NCBI GenBank assembly: GCA_023423995.1 | Contig: JAFAEL010000251.1 | Location: 1 to 28,788 of the forward strand | Direction of reading: 5' to 3' | Length of the DNA stretch: 28,788 nucleotides | Source of the DNA: Pseudomonadota bacterium | GTDB lineage: Bacteria; Pseudomonadota; Alphaproteobacteria; Rhizobiales; Beijerinckiaceae | Made by a program: the position numbers and the translations under genes | Shown: positions 2,910-11,087 of the stretch, piece after piece | Numbering within the stretch: position 1 is the first letter of the stretch | Layout of the letters: every line of letters begins with the position of its first letter | Notes under the pieces: generated by a model | What the model was told of the DNA's origin: nothing | The model's input: only the letters and a program-made list of their open reading frames with translations | The model's database searches: none

Positions 2910-3488
2910 TCAGCGCGGGGCGCGCTTAGCCAGGATCCTCTGGAGCGTCCGGCGATGCATGTTGAGCCGACGGGCGGTCTCGGAAACATTCCGTCCGCAC
3001 AGCTCGTACACGCGCTGGATGTGCTCCCAGCGGACACGATCGGCCGACATCGGGTTCTCGGGCGGGCTGGCGCGCTCGCCCGGCTCGGCCTTCAGGGCGG
3101 CATGGATCTCATCCGCGTCCGCAGGCTTGGCGAGATAGTCGAAGGCGCCGAGCTTCACGGCCGTCACGGCGGTCGCGATATTTCCATAACCCGTCAGGAT
3201 GACCCCGCGCGCGTCGGGGCGGCGCTCCTTCAGGCGCGCGATCACGTCGAGACCGTTCCCGTCGGCCAGGCGCATGTCGATGACCGCGTAGGCAGGAGCC
3301 TTCTCCTCGATCAGGGCGACGCCCTCCGCGACGCTTTCCGCGACTCGCACCTCAAAGCCGCGAGCCTCCATGGCGCGGGCCAGCCGGGTCGAAAACGCGC
3401 GATCGTCATCGACGAGAAGAAGGGAGTTTTCTGTGAGAGCCGACATAGGAGCGTTGCTCTCGTTCATGGCGATCTGTGGGTGAGCCAC
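2910..3488 (-). CDS. actR: ActR/RegA/PrrA family redox response regulator
   Basis: DNA-binding response regulator of the global redox pair RegB-RegA (ActS-ActR, PrrB-PrrA), which controls respiration, carbon and nitrogen fixation and acid tolerance genes in alphaproteobacteria. The receiver domain (about 22-135) has the acidic pocket LLLVDDD, phospho-acceptor D71 in VIDMRL, T99 in ILTGYG and K121 in AKPAD. A short linker leads to the very conserved C-terminal Fis-type helix-turn-helix (NVSETARRLNMHRRTLQRILAKR). GTG at 3488 was chosen because GAGGA lies 7 bases upstream; ATG codons at 3467 and 3446 also fit the family's variable N-terminus. The gene follows actS on the same strand with a 33-base gap, so the two are probably co-transcribed. 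It is 192 aa, slightly longer than the usual 180-185. Confidence 0.95.
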   Translation of the reverse strand: MAHPQIAMNESNAPMSALTENSLLLVDDDRAFSTRLARAMEARGFEVRVAESVAEGVALIEEKAPAYAVIDMRLADGNGLDVIARLKERRPDARGVILTGYGNIATAVTAVKLGAFDYLAKPADADEIHAALKAEPGERASPPENPMSADRVRWEHIQRVYELCGRNVSETARRLNMHRRTLQRILAKRAPR

Positions 3489-3521
3489 GTTACGATCCTC
3501 GATCGGGGCTTTTGGTTCCCT

Positions 3522-4913
3522 CTATATAGAAACGATCTCGACTTCTTTTAGGGGGGCAGCCGTCGATCCCGTTGTTGTGATTGCTGATTTCTCTTCGAAG
3601 CTCGTCCGGAGCCAGACAATGCGAGCGATGGCGCCTCGATCCGGGGGCGCAGCATTGGACAGCGTCAGCTGCCCTCCCGAGCGTTCGATCAGCGTCTTCG
3701 CGATGAAGAGCCCAAGGCCCAAGCCGGAGCCGCTTTCGGGATCCTGCGAACGCTCGCGGCCGCGAGTTGTGACATAAGGCTCGCCCAGCCTCAGCAGGAT
3801 CTCCGGCGGGAAACCCGGCCCGTCGTCCCGGATCTCGACGGCCACCTCGTGCGGGGTCCAATGCGCCCGGATCTCGATACGGCTCTCCGCGAAGTCGGCG
3901 GCATTGTCGACGAGATTGCCCAGGCCATAGAGAAGCCCCGGCGAGCGCCGGCTGACGGGCTCGGGGCCTTCACCCGAACACACGACCTCGATGTCGACTC
4001 CGAGCGACCGTTCGGGGCTGACGACCTCCTCGATCAGATGGCGGAGCGTCATGCTTTCGAGGAACCCTCCCTCTTCGTCGCCGAGGGAAGTCAGCTTGGA
4101 CAGGATCGACCGGCAGCGCTCGACCTGCTCACGGAGGAGGCTCGTGTCCTCCTTGAGGGCACTACCCTCGGGAGCCTGGAGATCGAGTTCCTTGGAGACG
4201 AGCGCGATGGTGGCTAGCGGCGTCCCGAGTTCGTGAGCGGCAGCGGCGGCCAGCCCGTCGAGCTGTGACAGGTGCTGCTCGCGGGCGAGGACAAGTTCGG
4301 TGGCGGCGAGGGCAGCCGAGAGCTGGCGCGCCTCTTCGGCGATCCGATAGGCAAAAGCGCCGGTAAACGCGATGGCGAGGAGGATCGCGCTCCAGACGCC
4401 GACCACATACAGACGGGGTAGCTCAAAGCCGTCGGCGGGGTTCCAGGGCAACTTGTAGTGATAGAAGAGGAGCAGGGTCGCGCAGGCCGCCGCCAGGAGG
4501 CCGAGTCCGACTGTGCGGGCGGGCGGGAGCGCGGCCGCGGAGATGAGAACCGGCGCGAGGAACAGGATTGCGAAGGGGTTCTGAAGACCGCCGGTGAGGT
4601 AGAGCAGCGCCGCCAATTGCAAAATGTCGAAGGCGAGGAGGAACGTCGCGAGGTCCTCGCCCAGCCGATGGCTGGCCGGCCATTTCAGGCCCAGCCAGAG
4701 GTTCACGAGAGCCGCCAGGGCAATCACGGCCAGGCAGAGCGCAAAGGGCAGTTTGTACCCCAGCTCGAAATGGACGAAGGCGACCGCCGCCGACTGGCCC
4801 GCGACCGCGAGCCAGCGCAGCCGCACAAGCGTGTCGAGCTTAAGCCGGCGAGCATCCCGGCCGATGGCGCCTGTCGCAGGATGCTCCGGCGGGTTTGTGA
4901 TCAGGCTCGGCAC
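3522..4913 (-). CDS. actS: ActS/RegB/PrrB family redox sensor histidine kinase
   Basis: Membrane histidine kinase partner of ActR. The N-terminal half contains about six hydrophobic segments with the family ubiquinone-site motif GGLQNPF (near 110). The dimerisation/phosphoacceptor helix carries H229 in AAAAHELGTPLA, numbered from the TTG at 4919 (subtract 2 for the GTG start). The conserved redox-active Cys (C265 in Rhodobacter RegB) is present in VERCRSIL, about 40 residues later. The catalytic domain has NLVDNAADFA (N box), DDGPGFP (G1) and GSGLGLGLFIA (G2). A strong GAGGA sequence lies 8 bases before the GTG at 4913, whereas it nearly touches the TTG at 4919, so GTG was preferred (463 aa). 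A Ser/Thr-rich tail of about 25 residues follows the kinase core. It is divergent from phaZ and upstream of actR. Confidence 0.94.
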   Translation of the reverse strand: MPSLITNPPEHPATGAIGRDARRLKLDTLVRLRWLAVAGQSAAVAFVHFELGYKLPFALCLAVIALAALVNLWLGLKWPASHRLGEDLATFLLAFDILQLAALLYLTGGLQNPFAILFLAPVLISAAALPPARTVGLGLLAAACATLLLFYHYKLPWNPADGFELPRLYVVGVWSAILLAIAFTGAFAYRIAEEARQLSAALAATELVLAREQHLSQLDGLAAAAAHELGTPLATIALVSKELDLQAPEGSALKEDTSLLREQVERCRSILSKLTSLGDEEGGFLESMTLRHLIEEVVSPERSLGVDIEVVCSGEGPEPVSRRSPGLLYGLGNLVDNAADFAESRIEIRAHWTPHEVAVEIRDDGPGFPPEILLRLGEPYVTTRGRERSQDPESGSGLGLGLFIAKTLIERSGGQLTLSNAAPPDRGAIARIVWLRTSFEEKSAITTTGSTAAPLKEVEIVSI

Positions 4914-5145: not shown

Positions 5146-6438
5146 ATGGACCTCGCCTATTACTGGTTCGATGCCGCCCATGCCATCCTGGCTCCAGCCA
5201 GGGCTGCCTCCGACCTCGCGCGTCTCGCCCTGAACAATCCCGCCAATCCGCTGACCTATACGCCCGTTGGCCGCACGGTCGCGGCGGCCTGCGAGATGTT
5301 CGAGCGCACGACGCGCCGCTACGCAAAGCCGGATTTCGGGCTGGGTTCGACCCTCGTGGGCGGCGAACGTGTGCCTGTCTCTGAGGAGGTGATCTGGTCG
5401 CGGCCATTCTGCCGCGTGATCGCGTTCCGGCGCGGCCCGACGGCAAAACGGGTCCGCCAGCCGAAGCTCCTGATCATCGCCCCGATGTCCGGCCACTACG
5501 CTACGCTGCTCCGCGGCACGGTCGAGGCATTCCTGCCGACGCACGAGGTCATGATCACCGATTGGACCGACGCCAGCATGGTGCCTGTCGCGGAGGGCGG
5601 CTTCGACCTCGACGAGTACATCGACTACGTGATGGATATGTGCCGGGACCTGGGTCCGGACCTCCATCTGATGGCCGTCTGCCAGCCATCCGTGCCGGCG
5701 ATCGCCGCGGTCGCCCGCCTGGAGGCAGAGGACGAGCCGGCGATACCGCGCTCCCTCACCGTCATGGGTGGGCCAATCGACACCCGCCGCTCTCCCACGG
5801 CCGTGAACCAGCTTGCCGAGAAGCGGGGCGTCGAGTGGTTCCGGCGCCACTGCATCCACACGGTCCCGTTCGGCTATCCGGGTTTCGGCCGGCAGGTCTA
5901 TCCGGGGTTTCTCCAGCTCTCGGGGTTCATGGCCATGAACCTCGATCGCCACATCACGGCGCATCGGGATATGTTCAACCATCTCGTGCACGGAGACGGG
6001 GACGCCGCGGAGAAGCACCGCGACTTCTATGATGAGTACCTCGCCGTGATGGACCTCACGGCGGAGTTCTACCTCCAGACCGTCGCAAAGGTGTTCGTGG
6101 ACCACGAGCTTCCGAAGGGTGAACTGCTCCACCGCGGCGATCCGGTCGACCTCCTTGCGATCCGCCGCTGCGCCATCATGGCCGTCGAGGGCGAGAAGGA
6201 CGACATTTCCGGCGTCGGCCAGACCCAGGCAGCGCTTGAGCTCACTCCCAACCTGTCAGCCGACAGGAAAGTGTACTACCTCCAGAAAGGTGTGGGGCAT
6301 TACGGCGTCTTCAACGGATCCCGGTTCCGGTCCGAGATCGCCCCGCGGATTTGCGATTTCATCGCGACGCATGAGCGGCGCCCGGCCGTCGTGAAGGCGC
6401 CCCGCGCGCGCCGGGCCGCTCTCGTTCCTGTGGCTTAA
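5146..6438 (+). CDS. phaZ: Intracellular polyhydroxybutyrate depolymerase
   Basis: Alpha/beta-hydrolase that mobilises intracellular PHB granules by releasing 3-hydroxybutyrate units. It matches the PhaZ1 type (TIGR01849), which uses a catalytic cysteine in place of the usual serine: AVCQPSVPA with C179. The other catalytic residues are visible as Asp in VEGEKDD (352/353) and His in KGVGHYGVFNG (H385). Conserved family sequence includes MSGHYATLLRGT (oxyanion side), MITDWTDA and the N-terminal MDLAYYWFDA. ATG at 5146 was chosen because CAGGAG lies 5 bases upstream and the family starts with this motif; the in-frame upstream TTG adds 16 atypical residues. At 430 aa it has the usual length. The C-terminal 25 residues are basic and variable. 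No other pha genes are in the window. Confidence 0.93.
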   Translation: MDLAYYWFDAAHAILAPARAASDLARLALNNPANPLTYTPVGRTVAAACEMFERTTRRYAKPDFGLGSTLVGGERVPVSEEVIWSRPFCRVIAFRRGPTAKRVRQPKLLIIAPMSGHYATLLRGTVEAFLPTHEVMITDWTDASMVPVAEGGFDLDEYIDYVMDMCRDLGPDLHLMAVCQPSVPAIAAVARLEAEDEPAIPRSLTVMGGPIDTRRSPTAVNQLAEKRGVEWFRRHCIHTVPFGYPGFGRQVYPGFLQLSGFMAMNLDRHITAHRDMFNHLVHGDGDAAEKHRDFYDEYLAVMDLTAEFYLQTVAKVFVDHELPKGELLHRGDPVDLLAIRRCAIMAVEGEKDDISGVGQTQAALELTPNLSADRKVYYLQKGVGHYGVFNGSRFRSEIAPRICDFIATHERRPAVVKAPRARRAALVPVA

Positions 6439-7240: not shown

Positions 7241-8683
7241 CTACTCCGCCGCCAAACGGGGCCGCTCCGCCTTCCCGAGTTCCCGGATCCGGCGCATGTC
7301 GTCCACGAAGCTCGCATAGGCGCTCCGCTTCGCATCCTCGTCCGGCAGTCGCAGCAGGTACGATGGGTGCACGGTGATGTAGCCCTGGAAATCCTCGAGC
7401 AGCTTCGCCGGGCCCCGGGCGCGCGTGATCGGAACCTGCTTGCCGGTCAGCGCGAGCACCGCCGTCCCGCCGAGCGCCACCACGAGCTTCGGCTCGATCA
7501 GCTCCAGCTCGCGCATCAGCCACCAGCGATAATGACTGACCTCGCCGGCCGTGGGTTTCGCATGGATACGGCGCTTGCCGCGCTGCTCGAACTTGAAATG
7601 CTTCACGGCATTCGTGAGGTAGACGTCCTTGCGCTCGATGCCCGCCTCGCCCAGCGCGCGGTCGAGCAGCCGCCCGGCCGGACCGACGAAGGGCCGGCCC
7701 TGGATGTCCTCTTCGTCTCCGGGCTGCTCGCCGACAAAGACGATGCCGGCATGCTCCGGTCCCTCGCCGACGACCGCCTGGGTCGCGCCCGGCACGAGCG
7801 GGCCGGACGCCTTGATAATGGCATTGAGCTCCGCGAGGTTGGCAGGCGCCTGATCCATCATGGCGGCGAGCGCACCTTCCGGCATGCGTTTGGTCGGCAC
7901 CGTCGGCTCCTCCTCCAGCATCCGCTCAACGCGCGAGGAGGCGGATCGGATGAGGCTCGGGATCGCCTGGGCCTCCGGCATGTTGCGCCAGTACTTCTTC
8001 GCCATGTGCTGCTGCATCAGCTTCGGATTGGCGCGGGCCGGGTTGAAGGTGGATTCGTAGTAGCCGGTCCAGCCCGCCTCGAACTTATCGTCTGCCGGCA
8101 CATCGGCCCGGGTGCCCGGCGGTCCGAAGCGGAGCTTGTGCCCGTCCCAAACGGCCGTCCCGATCGGCGTGACGATGCTCCAACGCATCGCCCGGAAGCG
8201 CTCGGCGAAGAACGGCGTCGCCGCCTCGAGGATGAAGTGGTCGGGCTCGAACCAGGCGGCGTAGTGCTCGGGCTCGCCGGGAGCCGTATCGAGCTGCCGG
8301 AACCGGACATAGGCGTGCATCTTATGGATGTCGCGCCGGACCGATTTCCGCATCAGCTCGAGGCGATGCACGACCGGGTCGCTCCCGATCTCCAGCAATC
8401 CGCGCTGGCCATGGGCAACGCGCCAGATCACATCGTACAGAAGGGCGTAGCGCTCCGGATCGCTGTGCGGCACGACCTCCTCGACCAGCTCGGCGACTGC
8501 GCGCGGCAGGCGAAGTGGCGGTGCATCCGGTCCAGGCTCCGCGACCGGCTCGGCCCCAAACAGGTCTGGCTCGGCCGTGCTCCAGGCGACCGCGCCCGGT
8601 GCGACGTCCCCGGCGACCAGCGACCGGGCGGCCCGGCGAAACCCGTCGAGATCGGCGCCGGGCCTGAGGGCAACCTCGCGCAT
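7241..8683 (-). CDS. udgX: DUF4130-UdgX fusion, uracil-DNA binding/glycosylase
   Basis: Two-domain protein of 480 aa. Residues 1 to about 240 match the 'probable DNA metabolism protein' family (DUF4130/TIGR03915). Residues about 275-470 match UdgX (TIGR03914), a family-4-like uracil-DNA glycosylase. UdgX enzymes excise uracil and then stay covalently attached to the abasic site through the His of a KRRIH loop. The key motifs are here: GEQPGDEEDIQGRPFVGPAG (318-337), NAVKHFKF, GKRRIHAKPT with H374, and the C-terminal HPSYLLR (439-445). Family-4 enzymes normally have four cluster cysteines; no cysteine occurs in this protein at all, so no iron-sulfur cluster can be bound in the usual way. The start ATG overlaps the stop of the radical SAM gene (ATGA), so translation is coupled. 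The LexA box at 9903 would control both genes. Confidence 0.93.
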   Translation of the reverse strand: MREVALRPGADLDGFRRAARSLVAGDVAPGAVAWSTAEPDLFGAEPVAEPGPDAPPLRLPRAVAELVEEVVPHSDPERYALLYDVIWRVAHGQRGLLEIGSDPVVHRLELMRKSVRRDIHKMHAYVRFRQLDTAPGEPEHYAAWFEPDHFILEAATPFFAERFRAMRWSIVTPIGTAVWDGHKLRFGPPGTRADVPADDKFEAGWTGYYESTFNPARANPKLMQQHMAKKYWRNMPEAQAIPSLIRSASSRVERMLEEEPTVPTKRMPEGALAAMMDQAPANLAELNAIIKASGPLVPGATQAVVGEGPEHAGIVFVGEQPGDEEDIQGRPFVGPAGRLLDRALGEAGIERKDVYLTNAVKHFKFEQRGKRRIHAKPTAGEVSHYRWWLMRELELIEPKLVVALGGTAVLALTGKQVPITRARGPAKLLEDFQGYITVHPSYLLRLPDEDAKRSAYASFVDDMRRIRELGKAERPRLAAE

Positions 8684-9897
8684 CAGAACAAGGCCAGCTG
8701 CTCGGCCGCGGGCTGAACGAGCCGGGCGCGGAGGTCGGCTTGGTCCGTCGTGCCGGCAGGATGGTGGTCGGCCGCGATCAGGAAGGGCAGGCTCCGCTTC
8801 AGGGCGCCCGAGAGCCGCTTCAGATCATCCAGCCGAAGGGTCGTGTGCCGGCGTGCCTTGACGATCTTGTCCACCGCGCGCGCCCCGAGGCCCGGCACTC
8901 GCAGCAGCATCTCGCGATCCGCCTTGTTCACGTCGACCGGAAAGCGCTCCCTATTCTTCAGCGCCCAGGCGAGCTTCGGGTCGACCTCGAGGTCGAGCAT
9001 GCCCCCTTCGGTCGCGGAGGCGATCTCCTCGACCTCGAACTCGTAGTGCCGCAGGAGCCAGTCGGCTTGGTACAGCCGGTTCTCGCGCTGCAGAGGAGGT
9101 GCCTTGGCCGGCAGCTTCGACGTCGTGTCCGGGATGGGGCTGAAGGCCGAGAAATAGACTCGGCGCAACGCGTAGTGATCGTAAAGGTTTGCGGTCGTGC
9201 GCAGCACGTCCGCGTCGCTGGCTGCATCGGCCCCGACAATGAGCTGGGTCGATTGCCCGGCCGGCGAGAAGGAACGCTTTTCGGCCTTCGCTTCGTCGAT
9301 GCGCTCGCGCATCTGGCCCATTGCGGCCTTGATGGTCCCGGCCTGCTTCTCGGGCGCGAAGCTCTTCAGGCCCTCGTCGGTCGGCAGCTCGAGATTGACC
9401 GAGAGCCTGTCCGCCCAAAGGCCGGCCTGCTCGATCAGCCAGGGGCTCGCCTCGGGAATCGTCTTGAGATGAATGTAGCCCCGATAGCCGTGCTGCTGCC
9501 GCAACGTCTTCGCGACCAGCACCAGCTGCTCCATCGTGTAGTCCGGCGAGCGGATGATGCCGGAGGAGAGGAACAGTCCCTCGATGTAGTTGCGCTTGTA
9601 GAAGGCGATCGTGATGTCCACGACCTCCTGCACGGAAAAGCGCGCCCGCTCCACGTTCGAGGAACGGCGGTTGATGCAATAGGCGCAGTCGAACAGGCAG
9701 TAGTTCGTCAGCAGGATCTTCAGCAGAGACACGCAGCGCCCGTCGGGCGTGTAGGAGTGGCAGATCCCGATCTTGTTGGTGGACCCGATTCCATCTCGCC
9801 CGGCCGAGCGCTTCGGCGCGCCCGAGGAGGCGCAGGAAGCGTCGTATTTCGCCGCATCGGCCAGGATGCGAAGTTTCCTCGTGAGCCGCTCGTCCAT
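8683..9897 (-). CDS. Putative DNA modification/repair radical SAM protein with helix-hairpin-helix
   Basis: Member of the TIGR03916 family, predicted radical SAM enzymes linked to DNA repair or modification. The cluster motif is CLFDCAYC, i.e. C-x3-C-x2-C at C67, C71 and C74. The usual N-terminal KLRILADAAKYDASCASSG precedes it. A helix-hairpin-helix DNA-binding motif (LLRVPGLGARAVDKI) lies near residues 330-345. The reaction is unknown. I place the start at ATG 9897 (MDERLTRKL) rather than ATG 9936, because family members begin here and because the longer start would put the LexA box inside the coding region, where it encodes a tandem LSERT-LSERT. The TGA stop overlaps the udgX start, giving a two-gene operon. 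This gene and the UdgX/DUF4130 genes co-occur in many proteobacteria and actinobacteria. Confidence 0.92.
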   Translation of the reverse strand: MDERLTRKLRILADAAKYDASCASSGAPKRSAGRDGIGSTNKIGICHSYTPDGRCVSLLKILLTNYCLFDCAYCINRRSSNVERARFSVQEVVDITIAFYKRNYIEGLFLSSGIIRSPDYTMEQLVLVAKTLRQQHGYRGYIHLKTIPEASPWLIEQAGLWADRLSVNLELPTDEGLKSFAPEKQAGTIKAAMGQMRERIDEAKAEKRSFSPAGQSTQLIVGADAASDADVLRTTANLYDHYALRRVYFSAFSPIPDTTSKLPAKAPPLQRENRLYQADWLLRHYEFEVEEIASATEGGMLDLEVDPKLAWALKNRERFPVDVNKADREMLLRVPGLGARAVDKIVKARRHTTLRLDDLKRLSGALKRSLPFLIAADHHPAGTTDQADLRARLVQPAAEQLALF

Positions 9898-9902
9898 CGT
9901 AC

Positions 9903-9917
9903 GTTCGCTTAATGTTC
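9903..9917 (-). promoter_or_regulatory. Consensus LexA (SOS) box of the radical SAM-udgX operon
   Basis: The plus strand reads GTTC-GCTTAAT-GTTC, an exact match to the alphaproteobacterial LexA operator GTTC-N7-GTTC. It ends five bases before the radical SAM start at 9897. A plausible promoter overlaps it on the minus strand: TTGCTC (9949-9944), a 16-bp spacer and TTAAGT (9927-9922). Transcription would then begin inside the box. The leader would be short, about 18 bases. The motif is seen directly; LexA binding is inferred. Confidence 0.75.
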
Positions 9918-10017
9918 TCTCACTTAAGCGGGCCATCCAGGGGGAGCAAGCGTAGCGGGAGCCGTGATCAAGCGCTTGTGATGGAGGGGCGCCGGTGCTG
10001 GCCGACGCCCCTAGGGC

Positions 10018-10959
10018 TCAGGTCGCGAGCGGCTTCAGCCCCCGCTCGATCTCCGCCCGCCGTCCTTCCAGGAAGGGCGGCAGGGCAAGCTTCTCGCCGA
10101 GCTTGTCCATCGGCTCGTCGGCCGCGAAGCCCGGCCCGTCCGTCGCGATCTCGAACAAGATGCCGTTCGGCTCGCGGAAATAGAGCGAGCGGAAGTAGAA
10201 GCGGTCGACGGGCCCGCTGGAAGGTACCCGCTTCTGGCGGAGTTGGTCGGCCCAGGCCTCGTAATCCGCGTCAGGAATGCGGAAGGCCACGTGGTGAACG
10301 CCGCCCGCGCCCTGGCTCGCGGCCGGCGCGTTCGGGTCGATCACGACGTGCAGCTCGGCCGCCGGCCCGCCCTCGCCCATCTCATAGGCGATGACCGTCC
10401 TGTCCCCGATCCGGTACTCGCGGACCGGCCGCATCCCCATGAGCTGCTGCAGGACGACATCCGTGCGGTTGATATCGGGCACGCTGATCGTGATCGGCCC
10501 AAGGCCGCGGATCTGGTCCTCGGCCGGCACCGGGCTCTTCGCCCAGACATGGCCTTCGCCGCGGCCACCATCGTCGACGAGGCTGAGGCGCTGGCCCTCG
10601 GGATCCTCGAAGTCGAGCGTGAGGCGGCCGTCTCGCTCTGCGATGCCGTCGTGGCTGATTCCCGCCTGTCCGAGCCGCTCGGTCCACCGCATCAGCGCGG
10701 TCGCGCCGGATACGCGAAGGGCCGTCCTGACGATGCTGTTCGTCCCGCGCCGCTCGCGCGGGGCCGGCCAGTCGAAGAAGGTCAGGTCCGATCCGGGAGT
10801 CGCGAGGCCGTCGGCGTAGAAGAGGTGATAGGCGGAGACGTCGTCCTGGTTCACGGTCTTCTTCACGAGCCGCATGCCCAAGGTGCCCGTGTAGAAGGCG
10901 TGGTTGCCGGGCGCGTCTGCCGTGATGGCGGTGAGATGGTGAATGCCGGTGAGCTGCAT
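10018..10959 (-). CDS. Ring-cleaving dioxygenase, two-domain VOC family
   Basis: Protein of 313 aa with two vicinal-oxygen-chelate (glyoxalase-type) repeats, as in the MhqO/CatE-like ring-cleaving dioxygenases implicated in quinone and hydroquinone detoxification. The N-terminal module begins [15 protein letters not shown] and contains [19 protein letters not shown]. The C-terminal module begins near 155, with candidate metal ligands H223 ([10 protein letters not shown]) and E270 ([11 protein letters not shown]), plus a His near residue 7-8. The ATG at 10959 starts exactly at the family's conserved N-terminus; the open frame continues 40 codons upstream with unlike sequence. CGGGGA upstream is an acceptable ribosome site. 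Neighbouring GST, RidA and PPOX genes suggest electrophile or quinone stress handling. The natural substrate cannot be read from the sequence. Confidence 0.9.
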
Positions 10960-11087
10960 GGGTTGGTCCCCGTGAGCCACGTCCTCCGGGACGAGCTCGA
11001 TGGAGGGGACATGGCCACCGGGCGTCCGCCGCCGCAAGGCACCGCCTGCAAGGGCCGTCGTGCACTCCTGCAAGGACACACGGCAGG

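Follow-up and report, generated by a model that had tools for sequence, protein, structure and literature searches.

The question raised by this locus is whether an operon that encodes a radical SAM/HhH protein together with a DUF4130-UdgX fusion is controlled by LexA as part of the SOS response, and what kind of uracil-DNA chemistry would be switched on with it. COG4277 is presumably the HhH/radical SAM family of TIGR03916, to which the first gene of this operon belongs. SOS control of such operons is not new. The LexA networks described for Bacteroidetes include a COG1573-COG4277 operon, and the same study, in its passages on this system, classes it as a putative system for UDG-based base excision repair and states that its SOS regulation had been reported for Verrucomicrobia and Alphaproteobacteria (PMC8565304). 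That operon resembles the one in the window (the whole stretch of 28,788 nucleotides that was analyzed) in being a two-gene unit in which a UDG-family protein and a partner are placed under LexA, as outlined in the same passages (PMC8565304). Features that may set the window copy apart are its closeness to Enterovirga (94%), the fusion of its glycosylase domain to DUF4130, and UdgX covalent-trapping residues together with no cysteine. Parts of the system appear elsewhere in the literature. In one study a figure legend connects DUF4130 to UDGs and to radical SAM proteins resembling SplB, and the passages concerned describe neither an operator of the operon nor UdgX chemistry (PMC3765255). Four COG1573 genes of Caulobacter are mentioned with no SOS box shown on them in the relevant part of one report (PMC1839093), and the Gram-positive LexA core includes, in the section describing it, a radical SAM protein of unstated family and no uracil glycosylase (PMC7739468). 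Our literature search turned up no paper in which UdgX is connected with LexA and none in which it is connected with radical SAM; the words "SOS" and "operon" do not occur in the body text of two papers on UdgX (PMC10776899, PMC10359453).

Both genes of the operon lie on the minus strand. The radical SAM/HhH gene (8683..9897) starts with an ATG at 9897 and encodes 404 amino acids, and the fusion gene (7241..8683, 480 amino acids) follows with a one-base overlap (TGATG), the ATG of the fusion lying over the stop codon of the radical SAM gene. Upstream is a 120-base intergenic region (9898..10017, minus strand) with a putative promoter and operator inside it, and the upstream neighbor of this region is a co-directional glyoxalase-family gene (10018-11079, minus strand). 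The radical SAM protein scored 561.3 bits against TIGR03916 (curated cut-off, 343.5) and the fusion scored 296.5 bits against TIGR03914 (curated cut-off, 189.95), with its TIGR03915 match likewise above the cut-off. The CX3CX2C cluster motif was present in the radical SAM protein of the window and in 80/80 relatives. A sequence-only reading of this DNA had named the two genes as a radical SAM/HhH gene and a DUF4130-UdgX fusion, and with all three families matched above their cut-offs these identities are established at the level of sequence. When solved structures were searched by sequence at the limits used, the radical SAM protein gave no match and the fusion was matched in its UdgX half only.

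The predicted LexA operator, a direct repeat of the form GAAC-N7-GAAC (GAACATTAAGCGAAC), occupies 9903..9917 on the minus strand and is assigned on the basis of its exact match and its conservation in relatives. Read on the plus strand it is GTTCGCTTAATGTTC, an exact GTTC-N7-GTTC, just as the sequence-only reading had it, and the sole one in the window; on the minus strand the end of the box lies 5 bases from the ATG at 9897. Significance of the box from the window alone was ruled out, because 0.66 matches were expected by chance against 1 seen, and 50/100 shuffles contained at least one match. With a weight matrix made from 133 boxes of relatives, the window box was the top-scoring site of the window (20.1 bits; next site, 13.95 bits) and fell in the lower quarter of the family boxes, for which the 5% point was 15.8 bits and the 25% point 22.4 bits.

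It is the relatives that give the box its significance. A protein search of genome contigs yielded 322 relatives; the 80 best were retained as loci, and the nearest relative was Enterovirga aerilata (94% identity). GAAC-N7-GAAC or its complement was found within 250 bases upstream in 79/80 loci, always upstream of the anchor residue. The region scanned in each locus extended from 250 bases upstream to 60 bases inside the gene, that is, 310 bases (287 in one region), and outside these regions the loci contained 13 matches in 530 kb, which corresponds to 0.0076 per 310 bases. These 80 loci are not independent, many being from Azospirillum or Methylobacterium, and their titles span several alphaproteobacterial groups. 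The single locus without the direct repeat came from Luteibacter, a gammaproteobacterium. A search of 110 loci (L001-L080 and L111-L140) with the fusion protein showed a relative encoded in 108; some of these matches cover only part of the protein or run up against the end of the stretch. Two loci may have a disrupted operon. The fusion match of L072 begins at 6095, with about 1.9 kb separating it from the preceding radical SAM gene, and that of L065 covers no more than a short part of the fusion (3363-3551).

Six of the 13 matches outside the operon upstreams score like true boxes. In L067, a box at 5651-5665 lies about 24 bases behind the fusion gene and before a LigT/2'-5' RNA ligase-like ORF (5686-6351), and in L044, a box at 873-887 lies in the flank upstream of the operon, before a similar ORF (894-1568); L044 and L067 are Reyranella and Enhydrobacter records. 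Similar strong sites were also seen in L037, L047, L054 and L060. Boxes placed before LigT-like genes suggest an SOS-controlled 2H phosphoesterase.

Two start codons, at 9897 and at 9936, had been considered for the radical SAM gene, the former being preferred. Translation from 9936 opens MARLSERTLSERT, in which the LSERT-LSERT reading noted earlier was correct when translated by eye. Gapless mapping of the 13 codons upstream of the position equivalent to 9897 in 80 relatives revealed an in-frame stop in 39, no start codon in 24 more and a start codon in 17. The start at 9936 was rejected on this comparison, and 9897 is the better start because 39/80 relatives have a stop in this stretch and 24 more lack a start codon there.

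The putative promoter consists of a -35 element, TTGCTC (9944..9949, minus strand), and a weak -10 element, TTAAGT (9922..9927, minus strand), the latter assigned by eye and, by our reckoning, matching the -10 consensus at 3/6 positions. The sequence-only reading had described the box as overlapping this promoter. Both hexamers are where it placed them, but the box, as judged by eye, begins 4 bases downstream of TTAAGT, over the presumed transcription start, and overlaps neither. A strict sigma-70 consensus scan of 9850-10100 detected no promoter, and both hexamers failed it. Across relatives, TTG[AC] occurred 18-19 bases before the box in 60/132 distinct direct-repeat upstreams, with a mean per position of 2.6. 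The usual spacing between promoter hexamers is 17-18 bases, so a TTG[AC] at this position would leave the -10 element within the box, between its two half-sites. In four upstreams, assigned by eye to the window and L001-L003, the distance from TTG[AC] to the box was exactly 32 bases, an arrangement that would put the box just downstream of the -10 element and over the presumed start site; TTGCTC is supported as a promoter element because its position is conserved in L001-L003. Either arrangement would let bound LexA block polymerase.

For a second, less biased sample, TIGR03916 was sought in 398 genomes, an even draw over the nearest relative's phylum (Pseudomonadota by name). It was found above the cut-off in 84; 15 further genomes with weaker matches were left out. 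Upstream regions were compared for 83 of them, G001 being omitted as the genome of locus L001. The direct repeat was present in 54/83 regions, against a shuffle mean of 0.32 (largest, 2) and 1/83 for a reversed-pattern control. A scan of the upstream regions of related operons, which the sequence-only reading had proposed, was thus clearly positive in 79/80 loci and in 54/83 evenly drawn regions. Among the 29 regions without the direct repeat, 24 contained the palindrome CTGT-N8-ACAG within 200 bases, 19 exactly and 5 with one mismatch, and 5/83 regions contained neither operator. For the exact palindrome, shuffles gave a mean of 0.17 in 83 (largest, 2) and a control palindrome 0/83; for the one-mismatch palindrome, shuffles of the 29 regions gave a mean of 1.65 (largest, 5). 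One-mismatch palindromes were also seen in 2/54 direct-repeat operons and 2/29 direct-repeat lexA promoters, which show the chance rate of this looser pattern.

Several observations were made on individual records. Seven genomes of 6-8 Mb (L130-L133, L137, L138 and L141) carry the box GTTCATGATATGTTC about 100 bases before the first conserved residues instead of at the more usual 30-60 bases, so that the promoter arrangement differs in them. Single records from outside Proteobacteria, of Phocaeicola, Subdoligranulum, Acetoanaerobium and Gemmatirosa, and one of the gammaproteobacterium Acinetobacter contained none of five operators within 215 bases at the settings used, the exception being a one-mismatch GAAC-N4-GTTC site in Acetoanaerobium. 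The Acinetobacter record (L263) keeps the radical SAM gene without any operator sought, and the family of Acinetobacter is described as lacking LexA in a passage of PMC8565304. In agreement with the two operator types of the genomes, named plasmid records contained the palindrome in two Caballeronia and the direct repeat in Paracoccus, Allorhizobium, Novosphingobium and Phaeobacter. In a plasmid collection, 158 records carry the radical SAM gene, most often from Phaeobacter (58), followed by Paracoccus (15) and Azospirillum (11); 7 such records are predicted to be conjugative, and at least some are chromosome-sized. Relatives of the radical SAM protein were found in 10/50,697 phage records (H61-H70), all at less than 60% identity and mostly in unannotated human-faecal phage contigs.

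The operator before the operon was then compared with the operator before lexA in the same genome, a comparison that rests on the genomes of relatives, the nearest included. A lexA gene above the family cut-off (110.95) was found in 29/29 direct-repeat genomes tested (of 55 including G001) and in 27/29 others. The two genomes below the cut-off, G361 (99.6 bits) and G075, are both among the five boxless genomes, and the match in G361, being close to the cut-off, is perhaps still a LexA. Of 56 lexA promoters compared, each taken as 250 bases before the match, 53 belonged to genomes with a box at the operon, and in 53/53 (29 direct, 24 palindrome) the type of operator at the operon was the type at the genome's own lexA promoter. 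At lexA, the direct repeat was exact in all 29 direct-repeat genomes, against a mean of 0.14 in shuffles. The 24 palindrome genomes showed no direct repeat at lexA and had a palindrome there, exact in 17 and with one mismatch in 7, where shuffles gave a mean of 2.06 of 24 and at most 6. Three genomes with neither operator at the operon had neither at lexA; these three, L147, L148 and L152 (G303, G095 and G394), have TTAGTAGTAATACTACTAA before lexA. The operator before lexA in L218-L220 is, we assume, of the Xanthomonad type. No operator of this type turned up ahead of the operon in any of the five boxless genomes or in Luteibacter. With TTAGTAGTAATACTACTAA at lexA and nothing like it found before the operon, LexA control of the operon seems to have been lost in that lineage. 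In the nearest relative, GAACACAGCGGGAAC, an exact box, stands before lexA together with a second, one-mismatch site, and recA and uvrA have one-mismatch sites only. Of all the observations, this joint change of the operator at the operon and at lexA argues most strongly for LexA itself as the protein that reads the site.

The best solved relative of the fusion was UdgX of M. smegmatis (PDB 6ail; E 1.5e-46), which, in this and other structures, shares with it GEQPG, KRRIH and the counterparts of the trapping residues. The fusion carries motif A as GEQPG and the R-loop as KRRIH, including the trapping histidine, and its motif B reads HPSYLLR against HPS(S/A)(L/V)(L/V)R, with Tyr for Ser/Ala at the fourth residue and with His and Arg present. 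Residues E319, Q320, N358, H374, H439 and R445 were invariant in 47/47 aligned fusions (the window's and 46 of 75 extracted), the M. smegmatis counterparts of the trapping residues being E52, Q53, N91, H109, H178 and R184. According to the pertinent sections of PMC10359453, M. smegmatis UdgX is a 4Fe-4S protein whose histidine bonds covalently to the abasic site, and replacement of the R-loop histidine results in conventional UDG activity. Judged from its residues, the second protein of the operon is no plain UDG and carries the covalent-trapping residues of UdgX. None of the 480 residues of the window fusion is a cysteine; the UdgX domain was cysteine-free in 31/47 aligned fusions and had four cysteines in 4/47 only. 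The Fe-S cluster appears to have been lost in the cysteine-free fusions, and a variant free of the cluster seems to be present in the window's clade. M. smegmatis UdgX is a 4Fe-4S protein, whereas the window's protein lacks cysteine for such a cluster, is fused to DUF4130 and is encoded behind a radical SAM gene, and we therefore refer to it as a UdgX-type variant and not as plain UdgX.

Control of the window operon by LexA is by far the best explanation of these comparisons, with a probability of roughly 0.86-0.9, and the claim of SOS control made in the sequence-only reading is supported both by conservation of the box and by the 53/53 agreement between operator and lexA. In principle the pattern, short and degenerate as it is, could have been matched here by chance, as the single match seen in the window against 0.66 expected would allow, and the GTTC-N7-GTTC pattern occurs 114 times (55+59) in the genome of the nearest relative against 41 (23+18) for the reversed control, so that many matches there are probably chance. 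As a general account, however, chance is refuted by the presence of the box in the same stretch of 79/80 relatives against 0.0076 expected per region, by shuffles that never exceeded 2/83 against 54 seen, and by the agreement with lexA, and for the window box itself we regard it as extremely improbable. A functional site that is read by another regulator recognizing GAAC-N7-GAAC, or that is a promoter element only, is very unlikely. In many upstreams (60/132) the -10 element would be expected just where the spacer of the box lies, and part of the conservation of the box could accordingly be conservation of the promoter; yet the box is also kept in the window and the three relatives nearest to it, where it appears to lie outside both hexamers. 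Another regulator is difficult to reconcile with an operator type that changes along with the lexA promoter in 53/53 tested genomes, and the direct repeat is the alphaproteobacterial LexA motif given in a passage of PMC8565304.

A further alternative is compatible with LexA control and concerns the product: the fusion would be an ordinary uracil glycosylase for base excision repair, with no covalent trapping. The putative UDG-based repair role assigned to the system in the cited passages (PMC8565304) agrees with this, and a domain free of cysteines may differ in its chemistry. We nevertheless consider it rather doubtful, since the R-loop histidine, its Glu partner and the UdgX-specific Gln were invariant in 47/47, and since, in the part of PMC10359453 concerned, conventional UDG activity arises when that histidine is replaced in UdgX. 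Covalent trapping of uracil by the fusion of the window is, on present comparison, somewhat the better supported outcome; with no cysteine in the window's UdgX domain, the reaction is carried over by analogy from the Fe-S UdgX.

For the induction of the operon in the organism of the window, for the trapping reaction of its fusion, and for what the radical SAM protein and DUF4130 do, we infer the following course. In undamaged cells, LexA would sit on the box over the presumed start site of the operon and block transcription. Upon DNA damage, RecA would be loaded onto single strands, LexA would cleave itself, and the operon would be turned on. The resulting message, with its short leader, would be translated into the radical SAM protein and the fusion together, via the one-base overlap of stop and start. 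The UdgX half would most likely excise uracil and become trapped covalently via His374, as in M. smegmatis UdgX, and the radical SAM/HhH protein and DUF4130 would probably act on the same or a neighboring lesion.

The change of operator along with the host's lexA indicates when this UdgX-type protein is wanted, namely, during the SOS response. A natural UdgX-type protein without cysteine would be of practical use if the adduct is still formed. We put forward, tentatively and as a possibility short of an even chance, that in many Proteobacteria the SOS response includes a self-sacrificing UdgX-type trap that caps uracil sites covalently during error-prone synthesis brought on by damage, with DUF4130 as a platform and the radical SAM/HhH protein processing or releasing the lesion, and that the Fe-S cluster was shed in the clade of the window, perhaps so that the trap may work under oxidative damage.
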